Below are positions 21,333 through 45,470 of a DNA stretch of 64,000 nucleotides, piece after piece. Source of the DNA: a virus; IMG/VR virus record IMGVR_UViG_3300008107_007821, positions 1 to 64,000 of that record, one strand, 5' to 3'. The translations under genes and the position numbers were made by a program. The notes beneath the pieces are model-generated. The model was given only the letters and a program-made list of their open reading frames with translations. It did not search any database and was not told the DNA's origin. The stretch's first letter is position 1; every line of letters begins with the position of its first letter.

Positions 21333-22669
21333 TTTGGTGGAACTCCATAAGAATCTCTGATGAGTTTGAGTCCAGTATACCCCTGATTTGTCTCAAACAA
21401 ATGAGATAGTTCTTTGATTAAATAATTTCCAGATTTTAAATCATCTCTCAATCCTTTTCTGGATTCATCCAATGTAATACTACCAAAGTCTAACTTAATA
21501 ACATCACCCACTGTTAGATTTAAATTCAAGGGTACTGTTATATTTAACATCTGACTAAATGCTAAGTTGTATCTTGCAATAGATTGTGACTGATAGAATG
21601 GTCTTTGATCTATTCCTGAAGTTTCTTCTGAACTTTCTGGTTCTCCTACCAATTGATCAATAACTTTCACCATAATTCTGGATGGACTATCTTCAAGATA
21701 CTTTGGAACTCTTGGTTTCTCTGGATTAGCAGCAGAGTTTTTCATAACATCAAGACTCTTTGAGAGTTTGTATTCCTCCTGCTTCAAGTCTCTAGTATTA
21801 GCATCATAAAAATAATTAATGCTTGAGTACATTCCTATTCTCATATTCTCAAGAACATTAACATTCTTTTCGAAGAATGGAACACTAACTATCTTAAAGT
21901 TAGAGTTTACATCTGCAGGAGCATTAACTTTCTCATCATATCTGTAAGTAGCAACTGGTGTAGATTGTCCAGTGGAAGAAAGTGTTTCAAATAAAGAATC
22001 TAAACTTCTAAAATTATATCCATTTATATTTTCATAGAACAAAAATCCTGCTGTGCCACTAGCAGTTGAAGATTTCCCTGGTGGGATTGATTTTGGTCCT
22101 AACCAAGTTAAAACTGTAAAAGGCTTCTTAGAGTTTCCAAAGAAATGATAACTATTTTTTGTAACATCTATATTTCTTTTCTTTGTGGTCTTTAATACTC
22201 CAGTTAATATTTGTTCTACTGATTGATCTATAGTTTGTTTTGAACCAGATGATTCTGGATATCTTCTAAAGACTCTGGTTGTTTCATTGGAAAACACTTC
22301 AAGTGGAGCTATGTCAATCACAAACATTTCTTTTGTGGATTGTGTAGTGGATCCACTTATCTTATAGATGTAATATGGATTAGTTGTCTCATTAATATCA
22401 ATAGTCTTTTTAGTTTCTGTTTGCTCTATGGTCAATACAACCTGCTCTCCACCCTTCAATCCAGGTTTGATTTTAGAATCAGTGGATGGAAGTGATGTTA
22501 ATAAACCTTGAGTATCAACTACAACTAATCTTAAAAAAATTGCAGGAGAAAACAAATCTTCAAAGTATTGCACAGAAGATTGTGTTTCAGTCATATTAAT
22601 AACTGTCTTCTCATCATGAGATATGATTAAAAATTTTTTAATCTTATAATTTGTGTATGATCCTGCCAT
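21329..22669 (-). CDS. 27: Baseplate hub subunit, gp27-like (446 aa)
   Basis: The protein starts MAGSYTNYKIKKFLIISHDE and shows the hub layout of beta-barrel segments seen in T4 gp27 and relatives: IFLRLVVVDTQGLLTSLP, EQVVLTIEQTETKKTI, MFVIDIAPLEVFSNETTRVF, and near the end NLNLTVGDVIKLDFGSI, the tail-tube-like domain. No catalytic motif is present. Gp27 forms the trimeric ring under the tail tube and holds gp5. Here it lies directly upstream of gp5, with one small gene between. Assignment rests on length, fold pattern and synteny rather than strong sequence identity. Confidence 0.7.
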   Translation of the reverse strand: MAGSYTNYKIKKFLIISHDEKTVINMTETQSSVQYFEDLFSPAIFLRLVVVDTQGLLTSLPSTDSKIKPGLKGGEQVVLTIEQTETKKTIDINETTNPYYIYKISGSTTQSTKEMFVIDIAPLEVFSNETTRVFRRYPESSGSKQTIDQSVEQILTGVLKTTKKRNIDVTKNSYHFFGNSKKPFTVLTWLGPKSIPPGKSSTASGTAGFLFYENINGYNFRSLDSLFETLSSTGQSTPVATYRYDEKVNAPADVNSNFKIVSVPFFEKNVNVLENMRIGMYSSINYFYDANTRDLKQEEYKLSKSLDVMKNSAANPEKPRVPKYLEDSPSRIMVKVIDQLVGEPESSEETSGIDQRPFYQSQSIARYNLAFSQMLNITVPLNLNLTVGDVIKLDFGSITLDESRKGLRDDLKSGNYLIKELSHLFETNQGYTGLKLIRDSYGVPPK

Positions 22670-24693
22670 TATTTCAATGTATTGAGAAGAACTTTCTTAT
22701 AAAAACTATTTAACAGTTGTTCCTCAGAAGGTCCAGATATTATTACAGGACCAGAAGAACCTTGTGCCATCATCTGCTGTTGCATCTGCTGAACTATTGG
22801 ATATGGAACAATTGTAGGTTCAGCATATCCTGATTGGTAAGGAAGATTTGTTGCTATTGGTCTTGAAGGTTGTTTAGGTGCAGACATTTGAGCTGCTGGT
22901 CTACCTCCAATATTAAATCCTCCAGGTCCAATAGACAAACCTGTAGATCCTTGTTGGAACAAAGGAGAAATTGCAAAACTTGCTCCAGGTTGTGCAGAAA
23001 CTTGAGGTGAAGTATCATTTTGCTGTTTTGCTCTTTCTCTTGATAGGGGAGAAGAAATTCTATTCTTAACTGATTTTACATGAGGAAGGGGATCAGTATA
23101 AGAACCATTATTAGAAATGCCAAAATGTAAATGAGTATTTTGTCCAGATGGATATAATTTTGCTATCTGCTGACCTCCATATACTTCCTCTCCAACAGCA
23201 ACCATAGGAGATGTGTGATAGTATAAAGTTCTTAATCCTCCTCCATGGTCTATTTCAACATATCCATTATAACCATTTGAAACTGCTGCTACAACTTTTC
23301 CAGTTTTATAAGCAACTACAGCAGCATCTAAGGCTCCTTGATGATGAGTCATATCTAATCCTTGGTGAGATCTAGATCCTCCATCTCTTGATGCTCCAAA
23401 TGCTTGAGATGAACTAACAACACCTTGTGTCCCAACATCACCTCCAGGGAGGGGGAAAAATGTATCCCCAGAAATTGGTCCTTCATACCCTGCTCCTGGT
23501 ACTACTGGAGTTGGAGCAGGCATTGGGGGCTCATCAAATTCTCCTCTTGCAGTAAGTTTAAAATGTTTAGAGACCTGTTCAAATTTATTAATTACTTTTT
23601 CATATCTATCCAAAGTTTTAGAGAATGTTAATTGTCCCCTAGATTCTTTTTTTCTTTCTACTAATTTTTTTTGTTGCTCTGTTTGTTTTTTTAATTTATC
23701 TTGACCACCTCTTCCTAATATTGTTCCATCAAATGCTCCAGTTTCTCTGGCTAGATCTACACCAAGAGCTGCCCACCCAATGACTGGAATGGCACTTACT
23801 GCAGACAAGATTCCCCCAACAACATCACCTTGACTAAATCTATATGCAGATAATCCAACACTAAGTGCTGTTCCTAATAGAGGAATAGCTCTTGCTCCAA
23901 CACCTGCTGCTTTTGCTGCAGCAGTTCCCCCTGCTCTTGTTGATACCTGTGCAGCAGAACCTCCTCCTCTAGTAGCTATTTTTTCTGCTATACTTCCAAT
24001 TCCAAATCTGCCCCCTGTAGCAACTCTTGCCCTATCACCAATATTAGCAGTTCCTTGAAATAATCTTTCATTAGATGCTGCAAATCTACTGGCACTTCCT
24101 CCTGCTGCTCTTTGTGCCCAACCTGGAAGATTTCTTTGTGCTTGCATACCTGCATATGCTTTTCCTGCCTTTGTTTGTGCACCTCCTCCAGAAGATGGTG
24201 CTCCTCCAGGTGTTGGGGTTCCTGCTCCACCCCTATTCATCATGGAACCAATTCCACGACCTAATAAAGAAGGACCAAATAATATTCCAGCAGCAATGAG
24301 TCCTGGTCCAGCAGCACCCATAAAATCACCTTTACCAAGTTTTGATGCTGCACTAAATGCTGCTAATGCTCCAATTGATTTTAATGGATCACTAACAGAT
24401 CCAGCAGTAAATAAATTTCCAGCATATTTTTTTATGTCTGGAAGTTTCATTTTGACTTGTTTCTTCTGAACAAATCTTTTATCATTCTGCTTTTGTATTG
24501 AATCTAATCTTTTCTTGTATCTGTTGAGAATTGATAATTGTGTTTTCTTTTGATATGTCCCTCTTTCAAAAACTCTTCTCAACTTAGTAGAAGATTTTTT
24601 TATACTATCAGATGACTCAACAAGACTATTAATCTTGGTAATGTGAGCAGTGACTCTTAACTTAGGTCTATTTAAAAGAGTTGTTGGGTTCAT
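22669..24693 (-). CDS. Tail-hub protein with M23 metallopeptidase domain (674 aa)
   Basis: Residues about 1-60 are basic and helical. Residues about 80-310 contain hydrophobic Gly/Ala segments (GLIAAGILFGPSLLGRGIG, VVGGILSAVSAIPVIGWAAL) like a tape-measure or membrane-active region. Residues about 410-540 are an M23 domain with zinc ligands in SHQGLDM and THLHFGIS and the usual GYVEIDHGGG and VAVGEEVYGGQ strands. M23 enzymes cut peptidoglycan cross-bridges, so this is a candidate virion lysin. It abuts the gp27-like gene. The C-terminal part is Pro/Gln-rich. Confidence 0.82.
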   Translation of the reverse strand: MNPTTLLNRPKLRVTAHITKINSLVESSDSIKKSSTKLRRVFERGTYQKKTQLSILNRYKKRLDSIQKQNDKRFVQKKQVKMKLPDIKKYAGNLFTAGSVSDPLKSIGALAAFSAASKLGKGDFMGAAGPGLIAAGILFGPSLLGRGIGSMMNRGGAGTPTPGGAPSSGGGAQTKAGKAYAGMQAQRNLPGWAQRAAGGSASRFAASNERLFQGTANIGDRARVATGGRFGIGSIAEKIATRGGGSAAQVSTRAGGTAAAKAAGVGARAIPLLGTALSVGLSAYRFSQGDVVGGILSAVSAIPVIGWAALGVDLARETGAFDGTILGRGGQDKLKKQTEQQKKLVERKKESRGQLTFSKTLDRYEKVINKFEQVSKHFKLTARGEFDEPPMPAPTPVVPGAGYEGPISGDTFFPLPGGDVGTQGVVSSSQAFGASRDGGSRSHQGLDMTHHQGALDAAVVAYKTGKVVAAVSNGYNGYVEIDHGGGLRTLYYHTSPMVAVGEEVYGGQQIAKLYPSGQNTHLHFGISNNGSYTDPLPHVKSVKNRISSPLSRERAKQQNDTSPQVSAQPGASFAISPLFQQGSTGLSIGPGGFNIGGRPAAQMSAPKQPSRPIATNLPYQSGYAEPTIVPYPIVQQMQQQMMAQGSSGPVIISGPSEEQLLNSFYKKVLLNTLK

Positions 24694-24696
24694 TTA

Positions 24697-26406
24697 TTAA
24701 ACAATCTGATAGACTAATTTTGAATACATTGTCAAGAAGTTATCAGAATAAGAAGTATCTATTTCAGGAACAGTATCATTTACTGCAGCAGTTGCTGATG
24801 CCTGTGGTGATCCTGAAGTTCCTCCCACTGGCATAGGGGCAAGAACAAAATTTGGTTGCTGGGACGATGGTGAGGGAATACTTCTAGGAGCTGCTGCTCT
24901 TGGTGTTGGAGAAGGTGGGAAAGAAGAGGATCCTGCTTGCCTCAAGTAAGTTTCAAAATTTCTGTAGAATGAAGAAGTATGAACATTTTGTTGACTTCCT
25001 CCAGGAAGAGAAGGCCAAACTCCTCTTAATCTATTAACAACCTCACTAATTTTTCCAGATCTAATTAAGTTTACTATCTCTTGCTCCCCTCCAGAAAATA
25101 AACTAGCAAGATATGCTCTATTAATTTTATATTGATTCTCTGCATTAAAAAGAGCAGTTGATGGATCTAGTCCAGCAGCAATAGTTCTTGCTCTTAAAAA
25201 TTCTGACATCTGTTGCATATTTCCCATGGCACCTGAAGTTTTACCTTGTGCCTTAAGTGCTTCAACTTTTGCTATAGCTTGATCAACTGTCATTTGAGAA
25301 AGACCTGGCATAGCACCTATTGTATTAACAGATTCTAATCCACCCTCACCACCAGATATAGATGACATCAAAGCATTGATTTCAGCAGGGGCTGGTCCAG
25401 AAATAGGTTGTCCTGGAGGTTGTGTAGGACCGCCTCCACCTCCTCCTCCAGATTGTCTTGATTGAGAGGTTCCTTCCCCCTGTCTCTTAATTAAAAAATC
25501 TAATGCTGCTTCAAACTTTTTATTAAGATCCTCAAACCTTTTTAAATCATTCTGAGGTAATGGCACTAAACCTGAGGGTTGTGTTAATGCTTTTTGCTCT
25601 TGAGTTAATTCTTCTAATCTTTGTTGGGTTGTATTTTGAGAATCTTTTTTCCCAAATAATGAACTTGCTAGTGCTAATCCACCACCAACAAGAGCTGCTT
25701 TACCTGCAAATCTACCAAGTCCTCCTAGTCTGGATGCTCCTGCCGCTGCACCTCCTGCAGCACTTGCAGCAGCTCCACCACCTCTGCTGAATAAAGACTT
25801 AACTAATTTTGAAGTTAAGGTTGTTGCTATTCCTCCAATGATAGCAGGAATATAAGTTGCACCAATTCCCAGCAATGGACCTATGATCTTTGAGGGATCT
25901 CCACTTAATAATCCTTGGAGAAGATTGAACATTGCCAACCCTCTAATTGCTCCACCAGCACCACTAAAGAATGATCCCGTATATTTCTTTACTGCTCCTA
26001 AAATATCTACCTTACTATCACCAAGTTCTTTCTTACCAAATATTCTACCTCTATTTGCAATTCTTTTTCTATACTCTTCTGATTCTTTTCTGTTCTGATC
26101 TTGAGTATTTTTATAATCTTCAGATATAACCTGAAGGATTTTTTCTAAATTATTTCTAGTTTGTTCTAAGTTTAAGGTTATTTTCCCTAAGGATGATACA
26201 TCTCTTTGGGATGTTGCTATGCCATCATCTCCTGAGGAAGATACTTTTAATCTTTCTGCTAGTTGCTGAGGAAGAGATCTATTTGGTATTAAAGATATTC
26301 TTCTAATGTTTGGAGCACCAAAAGACCTAGATTTATTTCCAAGACTTGTGCCTGAAATAAATCTAGTTACTCTTTGCCTAAAATAACTAAAGTCTTCTGG
26401 GGTCAT
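24697..26406 (-). CDS. Tail-hub protein with lysozyme-like domain (569 aa)
   Basis: N-terminal residues are basic (YFRQRVTRFISGTSLGNKSR). A Gly/Ala-rich hydrophobic part (about 150-260, e.g. GLAMFNLLQGLLSG, AALVGGGLALASSLFG) suggests a tape-measure or pore-forming segment. Residues about 345-485 look lysozyme-like: catalytic Glu candidate in SISGGEGGLES, then GAMGNMQQMSEFL, and RGVWPSLPGG, reminiscent of lambda-type muramidases. It overlaps the gp26 extension frame by ATGA. Together with the M23 protein it could replace the lysozyme that T4 keeps inside gp5. Which of the two acts as tape measure cannot be settled here. Confidence 0.7.
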   Translation of the reverse strand: MTPEDFSYFRQRVTRFISGTSLGNKSRSFGAPNIRRISLIPNRSLPQQLAERLKVSSSGDDGIATSQRDVSSLGKITLNLEQTRNNLEKILQVISEDYKNTQDQNRKESEEYRKRIANRGRIFGKKELGDSKVDILGAVKKYTGSFFSGAGGAIRGLAMFNLLQGLLSGDPSKIIGPLLGIGATYIPAIIGGIATTLTSKLVKSLFSRGGGAAASAAGGAAAGASRLGGLGRFAGKAALVGGGLALASSLFGKKDSQNTTQQRLEELTQEQKALTQPSGLVPLPQNDLKRFEDLNKKFEAALDFLIKRQGEGTSQSRQSGGGGGGGPTQPPGQPISGPAPAEINALMSSISGGEGGLESVNTIGAMPGLSQMTVDQAIAKVEALKAQGKTSGAMGNMQQMSEFLRARTIAAGLDPSTALFNAENQYKINRAYLASLFSGGEQEIVNLIRSGKISEVVNRLRGVWPSLPGGSQQNVHTSSFYRNFETYLRQAGSSSFPPSPTPRAAAPRSIPSPSSQQPNFVLAPMPVGGTSGSPQASATAAVNDTVPEIDTSYSDNFLTMYSKLVYQIV

Positions 26407-26588
26407 TTATTTGCTCTTTGTGCCTTTTCCTCTTCTTCTTGAATATGATTTTCAAGCAATGACAAATAAATTTCCCTTTCCCAAGGAATCATATTTTCCA
26501 GTTCAGTCAATGAGTATTTATGATACTGCATCAAGGCAAAATTAGTTCTATAATAACTCTCCAAATCTTCATGACCAATTACTATCCG
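26403..26588 (-). CDS. Probable -1 frameshift extension of gp26 (61 codons)
   Basis: A frame overlaps the end of gp26 and runs 61 codons past the slip point to TGA 26403-26405. It includes YYRTNFALMQYHKYSLTE, LENMIPWEREIYLSL and a Glu-rich end. The frame has no ATG, GTG or TTG in its first 24 nt; the first candidate starts are TTG 26562-26564 and ATG 26529-26531, both inside the conserved-looking part. At 26588-26594 the gp26 message reads T_TTT_TTC in register, a canonical -1 slip site. A fused product would be about 303 aa. It overlaps the lysozyme-like gene by ATGA. Confidence 0.7.
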   Translation of the reverse strand, partial: RIVIGHEDLESYYRTNFALMQYHKYSLTELENMIPWEREIYLSLLENHIQEEEEKAQRANK

Positions 26589-27313
26589 AAAAAACTTGAA
26601 AGTCCCTCTAATACTATTTCATTTTCAACACCAGTATTTGGATTCTTAATATTAAAAGTATGGGATAATTTGGGCATAGTATCAAAGAAATTTTCTATCC
26701 CTTTAAACTGATTTGCATCAAAGGTTTGTAACCATTCAACTATCTCTTTTTTGGTTAAGTCTGATGCTGACCAAGATTCATCTGCAGTGTATACCATATC
26801 AATGCAGGATGCAACTATCTCAAATGATTTGTTAATAGTATCTTTGCTGGTTGCATTTGCAGCAAAATTAAAATTATTATCAATAAATTCTTGCAGTGAA
26901 GGATACTTCATTTTGATAACAATGTTATCATCCACTTTAATTTCTGATGTATGTCCTTCAGGGATTACAACTTCAATCTCATCAATATTCACCTTTACAT
27001 CTACTTGTGTTTGATTGTCATCTGGACAAGTAACAATCAAATCTACAGATTCACCTACAGACTTTGCTCTAATATTTAAAAACAAATACTCAATATCAAA
27101 ACTAGGAAGAGAATCTATCTTAATTCCTCTAGTCAAGATGCACTCTTTAAGAGTATTTTTTACTGCACTAGTAATTTCTTTGGTATCATTACTCTCCATA
27201 GCAAGGATAAGAATTTTTTCTTCTCCAACTAGGAAAGGTCTATATTTAACTGTCTTTTTATTTGAAGGTAGAATCAACTCATAGGTTGGAGTTGCAACTT
27301 TTGGTAAAGGCAT
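26582..27313 (-). CDS. 26: Baseplate hub/assembly protein gp26 (243 aa)
   Basis: The start MPLPKVATPTYELILPSNKK and the following KYRPFLVGEEKILILAMES match the T4 gp26 family well. The body is alternating alpha and beta with VDLIVTCPDDNQTQVDVKV, and the C-terminus is NEIVLEGLSSFFG. T4 gp26 is needed for baseplate hub assembly. It heads the hub operon with a late-type AATAAATA box 27 nt upstream. The last codons (AGT TTT TTC GGA TAG) contain a slippery heptamer that gives access to the extension frame. Confidence 0.88.
   Translation of the reverse strand: MPLPKVATPTYELILPSNKKTVKYRPFLVGEEKILILAMESNDTKEITSAVKNTLKECILTRGIKIDSLPSFDIEYLFLNIRAKSVGESVDLIVTCPDDNQTQVDVKVNIDEIEVVIPEGHTSEIKVDDNIVIKMKYPSLQEFIDNNFNFAANATSKDTINKSFEIVASCIDMVYTADESWSASDLTKKEIVEWLQTFDANQFKGIENFFDTMPKLSHTFNIKNPNTGVENEIVLEGLSSFFG
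26588..26594 (-). promoter_or_regulatory. Programmed -1 frameshift site T_TTT_TTC
   Basis: On the message the gp26 frame reads AGT TTT TTC GGA TAG, so U UUU UUC fits X XXY YYZ in the zero frame, two codons before the stop. After a -1 slip the next codons are CGG ATA GTA, leading into the 61-codon extension. No clear downstream pseudoknot was found by eye. Confidence 0.65.
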
Positions 27314-27339: not shown

Positions 27340-27347
27340 TATTTATT
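27340..27347 (-). promoter_or_regulatory. Late-type promoter box AATAAATA (gp26)
   Basis: AATAAATA on the minus strand between the gp54-like gene and gp26, about 27 nt upstream of the gp26 ATG. Confidence 0.5.
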
Positions 27348-28146
27348 CAATGCCAGACCACCTCTCAATGGGACCTTGATTTCTTCCTACCAATGGAAGA
27401 CCTGCCTCAACTCTTCTATCTCTAAATCTTGAAGATGGAATGCTTGCCTTAGAGGTTCCTGATATTGGAACATTATTTGGTTTTGGATCTTTTCCTGGTC
27501 CAACTACAGTGCCAGTTCCATTATCATCAGTTCCAAATGGATCTGTTACTCTCTTAAAATTATAAACATCATAATTAAATGTAACAGTGGTTCTTAATAC
27601 ATTAGATCCTTCATAAGAAACTGGAACAGATATTAAATTAATTGGGTATGCATTTCTCAATGTATATTCAACATAAGTTTTTGGGGGACCATAAACTCCA
27701 TCCTTAACAAGTTTATTTGCATCATCTCTAAACAATCTTTCAAATTTAGTAATAATCATATCTACCTCATAGGTCTCAGGATAATTAAATTTAACATATG
27801 AGGTTCTAGAATCTCCAATGTTTGGAGAAATTGCTGCCATCCAATCTTCAAAGTACCTAAGAACATCATAATTACTATCAATATAAAAACTTACATCCAC
27901 TGCAGGATAAACTCTTCTTGTTGGATATTGTTCTATTCTTCCCTGTCTATCTCCATAAACTTGTGCTAACTCATAGGAATTGCCAGGAAGCACTGCATCA
28001 TATGCTAAAAAATTTATTTGCTCACTATTAACTACACCATAAGTTTCAGGAATATAAACATCAAAAACATTAGATAATGAAGGATTAAACTTTTTAATTA
28101 ATTCTTCAGTGCTAAACCATAAATTTTTATAGTTATTTCTTGACAT
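27343..28146 (-). CDS. 54: Baseplate tail-tube initiator, gp54-like (267 aa)
   Basis: The sequence has the tail-tube fold pattern: VDVSFYIDSNYDVLRYFEDW, YEVDMIITKFERLFRD, YTLRNAYPINLISVPVSYEG, VLRTTVTFNYDVYNF. T4 gp54 and gp19 share this fold; the length (267 aa) is closer to gp54 (320 aa) than gp19 (163 aa), and the C-terminal tail is Pro/Gly-rich and probably disordered. It lies between gp26 and, on the other strand, gp4 and gp48, as expected for a baseplate cluster. A tube-like paralogue is the main alternative. Confidence 0.65.
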   Translation of the reverse strand: MSRNNYKNLWFSTEELIKKFNPSLSNVFDVYIPETYGVVNSEQINFLAYDAVLPGNSYELAQVYGDRQGRIEQYPTRRVYPAVDVSFYIDSNYDVLRYFEDWMAAISPNIGDSRTSYVKFNYPETYEVDMIITKFERLFRDDANKLVKDGVYGPPKTYVEYTLRNAYPINLISVPVSYEGSNVLRTTVTFNYDVYNFKRVTDPFGTDDNGTGTVVGPGKDPKPNNVPISGTSKASIPSSRFRDRRVEAGLPLVGRNQGPIERWSGIE

Positions 28147-44007: not shown

Positions 44008-44318
44008 ATGATTACAGGTTCTCCTTGTCCTTCTGGAAGTTTAATTTGAGGCAACTGATTAATTTTTTCAACCATCCAATCTTCTTGATGTTTTTTATAA
44101 GATTCTGTATTAATAGTTATTTCATTGGTTGGAAGTGCCTTTGGAGTTTCAACATCTATCACTTGATCCATCAGTACCTTGTTTTTGACAATTTCACGAT
44201 TTGGTCCATCCAGATGCATCATCATTCTTGCATCTTCAAAACTACCACAATCACAAATTTTCTTATGAGTCCTTCTTTCTCTGACTGTATAGTAATCTTC
44301 ACTATTGTACTTTTTCAT
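44004..44318 (-). CDS. Unknown small protein (104 aa)
   Basis: 104 residues starting MKKYNSEDYYTVRERRTHKK, with a CDCGSFEDARMMMHLDGPNR segment and a C-terminal LPQIKLPEGQGEPVII. The N-terminal half may bind metal through CDC. It overlaps the glycosyltransferase gene by 4 nt and the 41-aa gene by 17 nt. I know no family; it may be an accessory to the sugar module. Confidence 0.7.
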   Translation of the reverse strand: MKKYNSEDYYTVRERRTHKKICDCGSFEDARMMMHLDGPNREIVKNKVLMDQVIDVETPKALPTNEITINTESYKKHQEDWMVEKINQLPQIKLPEGQGEPVII

Positions 44319-44427
44319 TTTTTAAAGTCTTTTGATTATTATAGGTCTTTGATGGTGGTCTGTAAAGTCCAGGCCAAGTATCCCTAATTATTTCTGCAAG
44401 TTTATATGGAGTTGTAGAGGTTATCAT
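44302..44427 (-). CDS. Tiny protein (41 aa)
   Basis: ATG 44425-44427 to TAG 44302-44304 gives 41 residues: MITSTTPYKLAEIIRDTWPG, then LYRPPSKTYNNQKTLKN. An ATGA overlap with the stop of the 348-aa gene and a 17-nt overlap with the 104-aa gene suggest a real coupled gene; the length is too short to be sure. Function unknown. Confidence 0.5.
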   Translation of the reverse strand: MITSTTPYKLAEIIRDTWPGLYRPPSKTYNNQKTLKNEKVQ

Positions 44428-45470
44428 AAATTTGGATCAGGTGGTCTAGGAGTTGGTTTAAACATACATTCTGAGGCATCAAGTCCCCAATTACGATAGA
44501 AGTCCGAGCGATCTATAAATCCATTTTCATTCACAATTGTTCCATATCCATCATCACGGAACATCCAACTACCAACAGAATCGTCGAAATCAACCCAATC
44601 ATTTAAGAAATCATCTCTTCCCCATACTAAACAATATTCATTGATAAATGCACCATTTGGATGTTGATCTTTCCAATCATTTTCAAGAGTACCAAATCTA
44701 GCATTTTTATCTGATACTGATTCAACCACATAAAAACGTGAAGGTTCTTGTTTAACAAGATATGTAATCCACTGCCAAACATCATTGGCAAGAATATTTC
44801 CATTATAATCAAGTATGGGTTGACTTTCATCTTGCACAAACCCTCTTGTGTCTACCCATTCATCACATCCCCAGTTACATTGTTTGCATGGACTGAACTG
44901 TGGACTTTCACCAAACCAAAATCCAATTTTCCATTTATCATATGGGAAACACTTTTTAAGAACTTGTGCTTTACACTCTCTACTAACTACAGTGAGTGCT
45001 TCATTATAAGGAACAGATGCATAAACAAAATCAAATGTATCAAAATCTGCAACTTTGACTACATTATTCTTATAGGTCCATACATCATTAATATGTTGAT
45101 CTGGATATGAAACCACAGGAGCAATCATCTTATCTTTGATAGTGGTGATTGTCTCAGTCAATCTTTCATAGCAACTTGAAATATTTTCATTCAAGTTTGG
45201 ATAGTCTTGCAGATTATCATGAATAGATTCTACAAATGCTCCAAGGACCCAAGATATAAGTTCTCTTTGAGGAAGTGCTTCTATACTACCAATTAAATCA
45301 AAAGCAGTCCAAAAAAGATTTGAAAGGAAGGATTGTCCAACTTCTTTATTATCTTGCTCTTGTAACTTTAGATAAATTTCTGGTATTGCAGAATTCATAT
45401 TATTCTGCAACTCACTAAGAAATGCATTTAATGTTTGAAAATTTGCAACTAATTTTGAATGTTCCATCAT
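44424..45470 (-). CDS. Unknown protein of the sugar module (348 aa)
   Basis: The N-terminal 130 residues are helical (ANFQTLNAFLSELQNNMNSA; ISWVLGAFVESIHDNLQDYP). The rest is Trp-, Cys- and Asp-rich (WKIGFWFGESPQFSPCKQCN; WGCDEWVDTRGF; DWVDFDDSVGSWMFRDDGYG). The CKQC and C pattern could bind a metal. I recognise no family. It is the 5'-most gene of the first sugar module, with a long leader toward psbA, so it may be the module's unusual member. Confidence 0.75.
   Translation of the reverse strand: MMEHSKLVANFQTLNAFLSELQNNMNSAIPEIYLKLQEQDNKEVGQSFLSNLFWTAFDLIGSIEALPQRELISWVLGAFVESIHDNLQDYPNLNENISSCYERLTETITTIKDKMIAPVVSYPDQHINDVWTYKNNVVKVADFDTFDFVYASVPYNEALTVVSRECKAQVLKKCFPYDKWKIGFWFGESPQFSPCKQCNWGCDEWVDTRGFVQDESQPILDYNGNILANDVWQWITYLVKQEPSRFYVVESVSDKNARFGTLENDWKDQHPNGAFINEYCLVWGRDDFLNDWVDFDDSVGSWMFRDDGYGTIVNENGFIDRSDFYRNWGLDASECMFKPTPRPPDPNL

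Follow-up and report, generated by a model that had tools for sequence, protein, structure and literature searches.

A conserved slippery site at the end of gp26 in a cyanophage-like virus probably directs a -1 frameshift giving short and long forms of a tail assembly chaperone related to T4 gp26 and gp51

The gp26 gene is located on the minus strand (26582-27313) of a window of 64,000 nt, the whole stretch of DNA analysed here, which lies within the 71,460-base IMG/VR record of an uncultured, cyanophage-like virus. The gene upstream of gp26 (27343-28146, minus strand) encodes a tail tube protein (PF23849, E=5e-14; phrog_45, E=8e-34), and the next gene downstream (24697-26406, minus strand) encodes a protein of 569 aa, an unproven candidate for a tape-measure or tail-lumen protein. 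The zero-frame product of gp26, of 243 aa, matches PF12322, known as 'T4 bacteriophage base plate protein' (E=5e-75), and the baseplate hub family phrog_150 (E=6e-82), and the biggest group of its relatives among annotated phages comprises Synechococcus and Prochlorococcus myoviruses. An NCBIfam search gave no match and PADLOC nothing meaningful. Read on the minus strand, gp26 ends CTT TCA AGT TTT TTC GGA TAG, such that a slippery heptamer, T_TTT_TTC, stands in the zero frame (26588-26594, minus strand) 10 nt before the stop codon, with one sense codon between it and the TAG (26584-26582). Slippage by one base would lead into an extension (26403-26588, minus strand) of 61 codons in the -1 frame (26588-26406), closed by a TGA (26405-26403) which the ATG of the 569-aa ORF (26406-26404) overlaps as ATGA. 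Searched by itself, the extension hits phrog_634 (E=6e-28), the family of T4 gp51, whose label is 'baseplate hub assembly catalyst'. A first-pass annotation had proposed a programmed frameshift here on the strength of the terminal codons, the in-frame heptamer, the open -1 frame and the ATGA overlap, and each of these features is present in the sequence as it described them. The predicted fusion is of 303 aa, with a predicted junction peptide ...GLSSFFRIVIGHEDLESYYR...; in it, gp26 would supply the short form (TAC-N, resembling lambda gpG) and the extension the C-terminal domain of the long form (TAC-C).

The heptamer string occurs 26 times in this AT-rich window, with 37 copies expected, and because a string so common is of little value in itself, one genome alone proves nothing; it is the position of the heptamer, not its presence, that carries the weight. 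When the window was scanned for ORFs of at least 100 aa having an in-frame XXXYYYZ motif no more than 12 codons from the end and a -1 frame that stays open for 60 nt or more beyond the stop, only two were returned, gp26 and one at 44433. The latter (minus strand, 44302-45470) has AAATTTA (44433) 7 nt before its stop and an ORF of 41 codons in the -1 frame, but this ORF begins at an ATG of its own within an ATGA overlap of the ordinary kind, and we rejected the motif as a frameshift site; it is probably a chance occurrence. For the gp26 site, chance is excluded as the source by its pattern of conservation among related loci.

Such loci were gathered from IMG/VR and from annotated phages and, once duplicates had been removed, came to 145 distinct examples, in all of which the -1 frame is open. 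T_TTT_TT(C/T/A) is found near the gp26 stop in 141 of the 145, and precisely 10 nt ahead of it in 140; in C48C1 the site is T_TTT_TTT and lies 7 nt from the stop. The remaining four (Kuttervirus Se_EM1, VAP7, Kuja and D494) carry NTT_TTY, so that the association of heptamer and second frame, on which the first-pass annotation had staked its claim, holds throughout the collection with these few variants. The codon ahead of the slip-site Phe pair is variable (AGT, TCT, GCT, GAT, CGT) and its third base is always T, and Pseudoalteromonas phage XG4 has TTA (Leu) as its second slip codon, which alters the protein and retains a slippery T_TTT_TTA. In a test of synonymous variation across 134 relatives, with similar sequences down-weighted to an effective n of 72, synonymous variation was absent from the slip codons TTT and TTC and from no other of the 98 testable columns. 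At the slip site TTC is fixed, though in the remainder of the gene it makes up 31% of Phe codons. The final C of this codon is under double constraint because it is also the first base of an invariant Arg codon in the -1 frame; the T positions of the heptamer are free of that second constraint.

The NTT_TTY loci (L004, L089, L092 and L095, from Ackermannviridae and Vibrio phage D494) have ATT TTC, GTT TTT, CTT TTC and CTT TTT near the stop; the tandem heptamer is absent and the -1 extension is retained. This suggests that a single tRNA-Phe could slip from TTY to TTT. The same loci bear on whether the frames are joined by the polymerase and not by the ribosome, since the gene has a run of six T, into which the insertion of a single U would give access to the -1 frame. 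Slippage by polymerase usually requires runs longer than six T, however, and the four related loci, with runs of only four or five, keep the extension all the same; moreover, the phase of the tandem slip and the invariable T at the end of the preceding codon fit ribosomal slippage. We consider transcriptional slippage highly improbable.

The extension itself is, judged by its pattern of substitution, under strong purifying selection, as had been predicted for a translated frame. Its median dN/dS is about 0.13 (0.16 for gp26), and it is without stops in 134 of 134 sequences, each of the other two frames having stops in all 134. In many cyanophage records this region is annotated as a separate small gene, 'gp51', which would be translated from its own internal start codon, and in the KVP40 group an ATG in the right frame does overlap the gp26 stop (TAATG). 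Start positions are not conserved, however: no position among the 20 codons that follow the slip site holds a start codon in more than 19% of sequences, and the first starts seen most often, at codons 20-21, would drop conserved residues from the N-terminal part, including an invariant Leu and an Asn-Phe pair. Conservation of the extension reaches right to the slip site, beginning with the invariant Arg, and the T4 gp51 protein is continuous across the corresponding point. An independent gene is thus very unlikely, and the extension does not appear to rely on an internal start. In the window, the first-pass annotation had reported no ATG, GTG or TTG near the beginning of the extension; this stands for ATG and GTG, and the earliest candidate is a TTG nine codons into the extension, at 26564. 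Ribosomes that terminate at the TAG might also reinitiate nearby and make the extension as a free polypeptide, given that the frames overlap closely, that such coupling is frequent in phage tail operons and that in a few groups an ATG coincides with the stop or lies close by. In the window, though, there is no start codon close to the TAG, and reinitiation has no need of T_TTT_TTC, yet nothing else in the gene is so tightly constrained; the probability that we attach to reinitiation is slight indeed. Frameshifting within a single gene is the reading that we follow below.

Comparison with T4 bears directly on the predicted fusion. T4 gp51 is a single continuous protein of 249 aa, whose N-terminal 200 residues match PF12322, as does T4 gp26, and whose C-terminus matches the -1 extension of the window. 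A profile comparison with hhalign, of nine predicted fusions against six T4-type gp51 proteins, aligned 243 columns through the slip-site Phe and the junction (E=1e-23), and the extension alone aligned with the gp51 C-terminus at E=6.6e-13. T4-type gp26 aligns to the zero-frame part only, up to the slip-site Phe (profile position 245). We regard this homology across the predicted junction as the strongest evidence for the fusion. Since T4 gp51 is continuous and aligns with the fusion, T4 would have two genes, 26 (short form) and 51 (long form), for what the window phage is predicted to encode as one gene with a frameshift. The slip site has been lost from T4, where gp26 ends GAG TTC TTT GAG TTA CTA TAA and gp51 reads GTG TTT AAG, in one frame, at the corresponding site. 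Both forms appear to come from one gene in cyanophages, in KVP40-type phages, in Aeh1 and in others. In phage RB43 (L096, 3001-4294), gp51 is followed by an ORF on the same strand that ends in a gp26-like motif, LRGLEAFLKVVG, in contrast to T4, where genes 26 and 51 are on opposite strands.

The presence of both domains in one frame in T4 could also be taken to mean that an old frameshift mutation, or an error of assembly, has split a single gene and left the extension as a relic. The split is the same, however, across dozens of independent contigs and across isolates of Kyanoviridae, Straboviridae, Menderavirus and Ackermannviridae, with purifying selection on both halves; the conservation already refutes such an origin, to which we assign a negligible probability.

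With regard to what might promote slippage, a Shine-Dalgarno-like element (around GAGGGA; 26600-26607, minus strand) has its core about 8-10 nt upstream of the heptamer. In windows starting 14-17 nt before the heptamer, the mean anti-Shine-Dalgarno pairing energy of the relatives is about -5.5 to -6.1 kcal/mol, where the remainder of the gene averages -0.06, and it is at or below the 5th percentile of the background in 95-97% of sampled sequences. No start codon lies at the right distance from the element. Part of this signal arises because a Glu-Gly dipeptide is conserved there, but codon choice is biased as well: the Glu codon is GAG in 62% of cases in the element and in 27% elsewhere, and GAA is paired with GGG in 26 of 49 instances but GAG with GGG in only 5 of 81 (p=2e-9, a value uncorrected for relatedness of the sequences). 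The element, conserved at the nucleotide level, may therefore be a stimulator of slippage. We found no conserved RNA structure downstream of the site among the relatives (mean z about -0.7 to -0.9) and none downstream in the window itself (z -0.9 to +0.4). A comparable combination is known from the -1 frameshift of bacterial dnaX, which takes place at A_AAA_AAG with an internal Shine-Dalgarno sequence about 10 nt upstream and a hairpin downstream. The gp26 site would share with it the slippery heptamer and the upstream stimulator, and differs in its heptamer and in the lack of a detected downstream structure.

Our working model is that gp26 and the -1 extension are one gene that gives rise to two proteins. 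Most ribosomes would terminate at the TAG and release the short form of 243 aa. A minority would slip back by one base on T_TTT_TTC, both tRNA-Phe re-pairing with UUU, probably aided by the Shine-Dalgarno-like sequence 8-10 nt upstream, and would then translate the 61 further codons to give the long form of 303 aa. The two forms would act in the manner of lambda gpG and gpGT, as chaperones for the assembly of the tail tube on the tape measure, and this chaperone step would be what T4 genetics terms hub assembly. We place the probability that one gene gives a short and a long tail chaperone through a -1 slip at roughly 0.93; it is from comparative data that we infer the slippage, its frequency and the chaperone function, the last by homology to T4 gp26 and gp51 and by analogy with lambda gpG and gpGT. 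An elaboration of the model, for and against which we are evenly poised, holds that the internal Shine-Dalgarno sequence (GAG with GGA or GGT, or GAA with GGG) sets the frameshift ratio, that sites of the Ackermannviridae type, NNT_TTY, operate by a single-tRNA slip, and that T4 escaped the need for frameshifting by duplication and splitting of the gene.

The lambda-like role had been proposed in the first-pass annotation, and it is strengthened here by T4 gp51, in effect a natural in-frame fusion; the accompanying placement of gp26 ahead of a tape-measure-like gene is less firm, as the 569-aa ORF has no detectable similarity to T4 gp29. Chaperones of the lambda type are characterized by a long form made at a few per cent, by the absence of both forms from the virion and by binding to the tape measure. 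The lambda G/GT pair (PMC5009743) shares with the window the production of a short and a long product by -1 slippage near the end of the upstream ORF, a location in the tail gene cluster and a small C-terminal extension. In contrast, lambda gpG had no sequence similarity to gp26 in family searches and uses a different heptamer, and the window differs from it in having the upstream Shine-Dalgarno-like element and an adjacent gene that is not a recognizable tape measure. An AlphaFold2 model of gp26 (pLDDT 86) matches other gp26-type proteins in a viral structure library. In a structure search of the PDB, the HK97 tail assembly chaperone 2OB9 ranked second and fourth (E 0.86-1.0, TM-score about 0.4 by target length), a likeness which, at such E values, is only a hint; PDB sequence searches with gp26 and gp51 gave no match.

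T4 gp26 and gp51 have been called hub assembly chaperones, and gp51 is needed for assembly yet absent from the final particle (PMC3004832). The gp51 of cyanophages has been reported to be about 20% of the usual length, lacking the first ~200 residues, and gp51 to be 'missing only in Aeh1' (Sullivan et al., PMC3037559). If one frameshifted gene is the counterpart of T4 genes 26 and 51 together, the 'truncated gp51' of cyanophages is explained, its missing part being, on the alignments above, gp26 itself. The 'truncated gp51' or 'hypothetical protein' that follows gp26 in hundreds of cyanophage records would then be the frameshifted tail of gp26 and not a gene of its own, and a widespread annotation error would be corrected. 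The same comparison supports the view that T4 gp26 and gp51, long termed 'hub assembly factors' of unknown function, are short and long tail assembly chaperones. In Aeromonas phage Aeh1 (L003, 4708-4884), gp26 has a TTTTTTC site and is directly followed by a -1 extension that bears no annotation. Among annotated phages, it is the freshwater cyanophage Synechococcus phage DSL-LC03 (L185, 2001-2175) that matches the extension best; there too the extension is unannotated, and the slip site, GGAGGGACTTTCTGATTTTTTCGGCTAG, is intact.

The arrangement described here is real but not new in kind, frameshifted tail assembly chaperones of T4-like phages having already been described. Genes 26 and 51 of T4 are reportedly named by Vladimirov, Gautam & Davidson (Virology 2022, 566:9-15). 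According to one later source, some T4-like phages dispense with frameshifting and carry a short chaperone gene together with a fused long one (PMC10885494, citing Vladimirov, Gautam & Davidson 2022), and another attributes to the same authors the poly-T slip sites that TAC-N genes have in T4-like phages (PMC12846349, citing Vladimirov et al. 2022). The T4-like chaperones share with the window phage the PF12322/phrog_150 homology, the short form, a C-terminal domain continuous with the N-terminal one and, according to these accounts, the poly-T sites; T4 itself differs in having two separate, diverged genes in place of one gene with T_TTT_TTC. A further likeness is to the GTTTTT sites of Vandenendeviridae and Andersonviridae (PMC12846349), where a poly-T -1 frameshift again ends a chaperone gene, and which the VAP7-type site, GTT TTT CGC, resembles; these are other phage families, and the likeness is one of the site and its place at the end of the gene. 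What the present analysis adds is a dense set of conservation statistics, a Shine-Dalgarno-like element, an account of why cyanophage gp51 looks truncated, and a record of the variants of the site. Most else follows published work; the proposed stimulator upstream of the slip site is an addition that can be tested.

The genes that follow gp26 are less readily placed. The 569-aa ORF contains one hydrophobic stretch and has a weak match to phrog_90; with no detectable similarity to T4 gp29, its candidacy as a gp29 homologue was rejected. The same protein (24697-26406, minus strand) has a weak match of endolysin type, and the 674-aa protein encoded two genes downstream of gp26 (22669-24693, minus strand) contains an M23 peptidase domain (E=2e-17). 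Either the 674-aa or the 569-aa protein could be a tape measure with a cell-wall-degrading domain.
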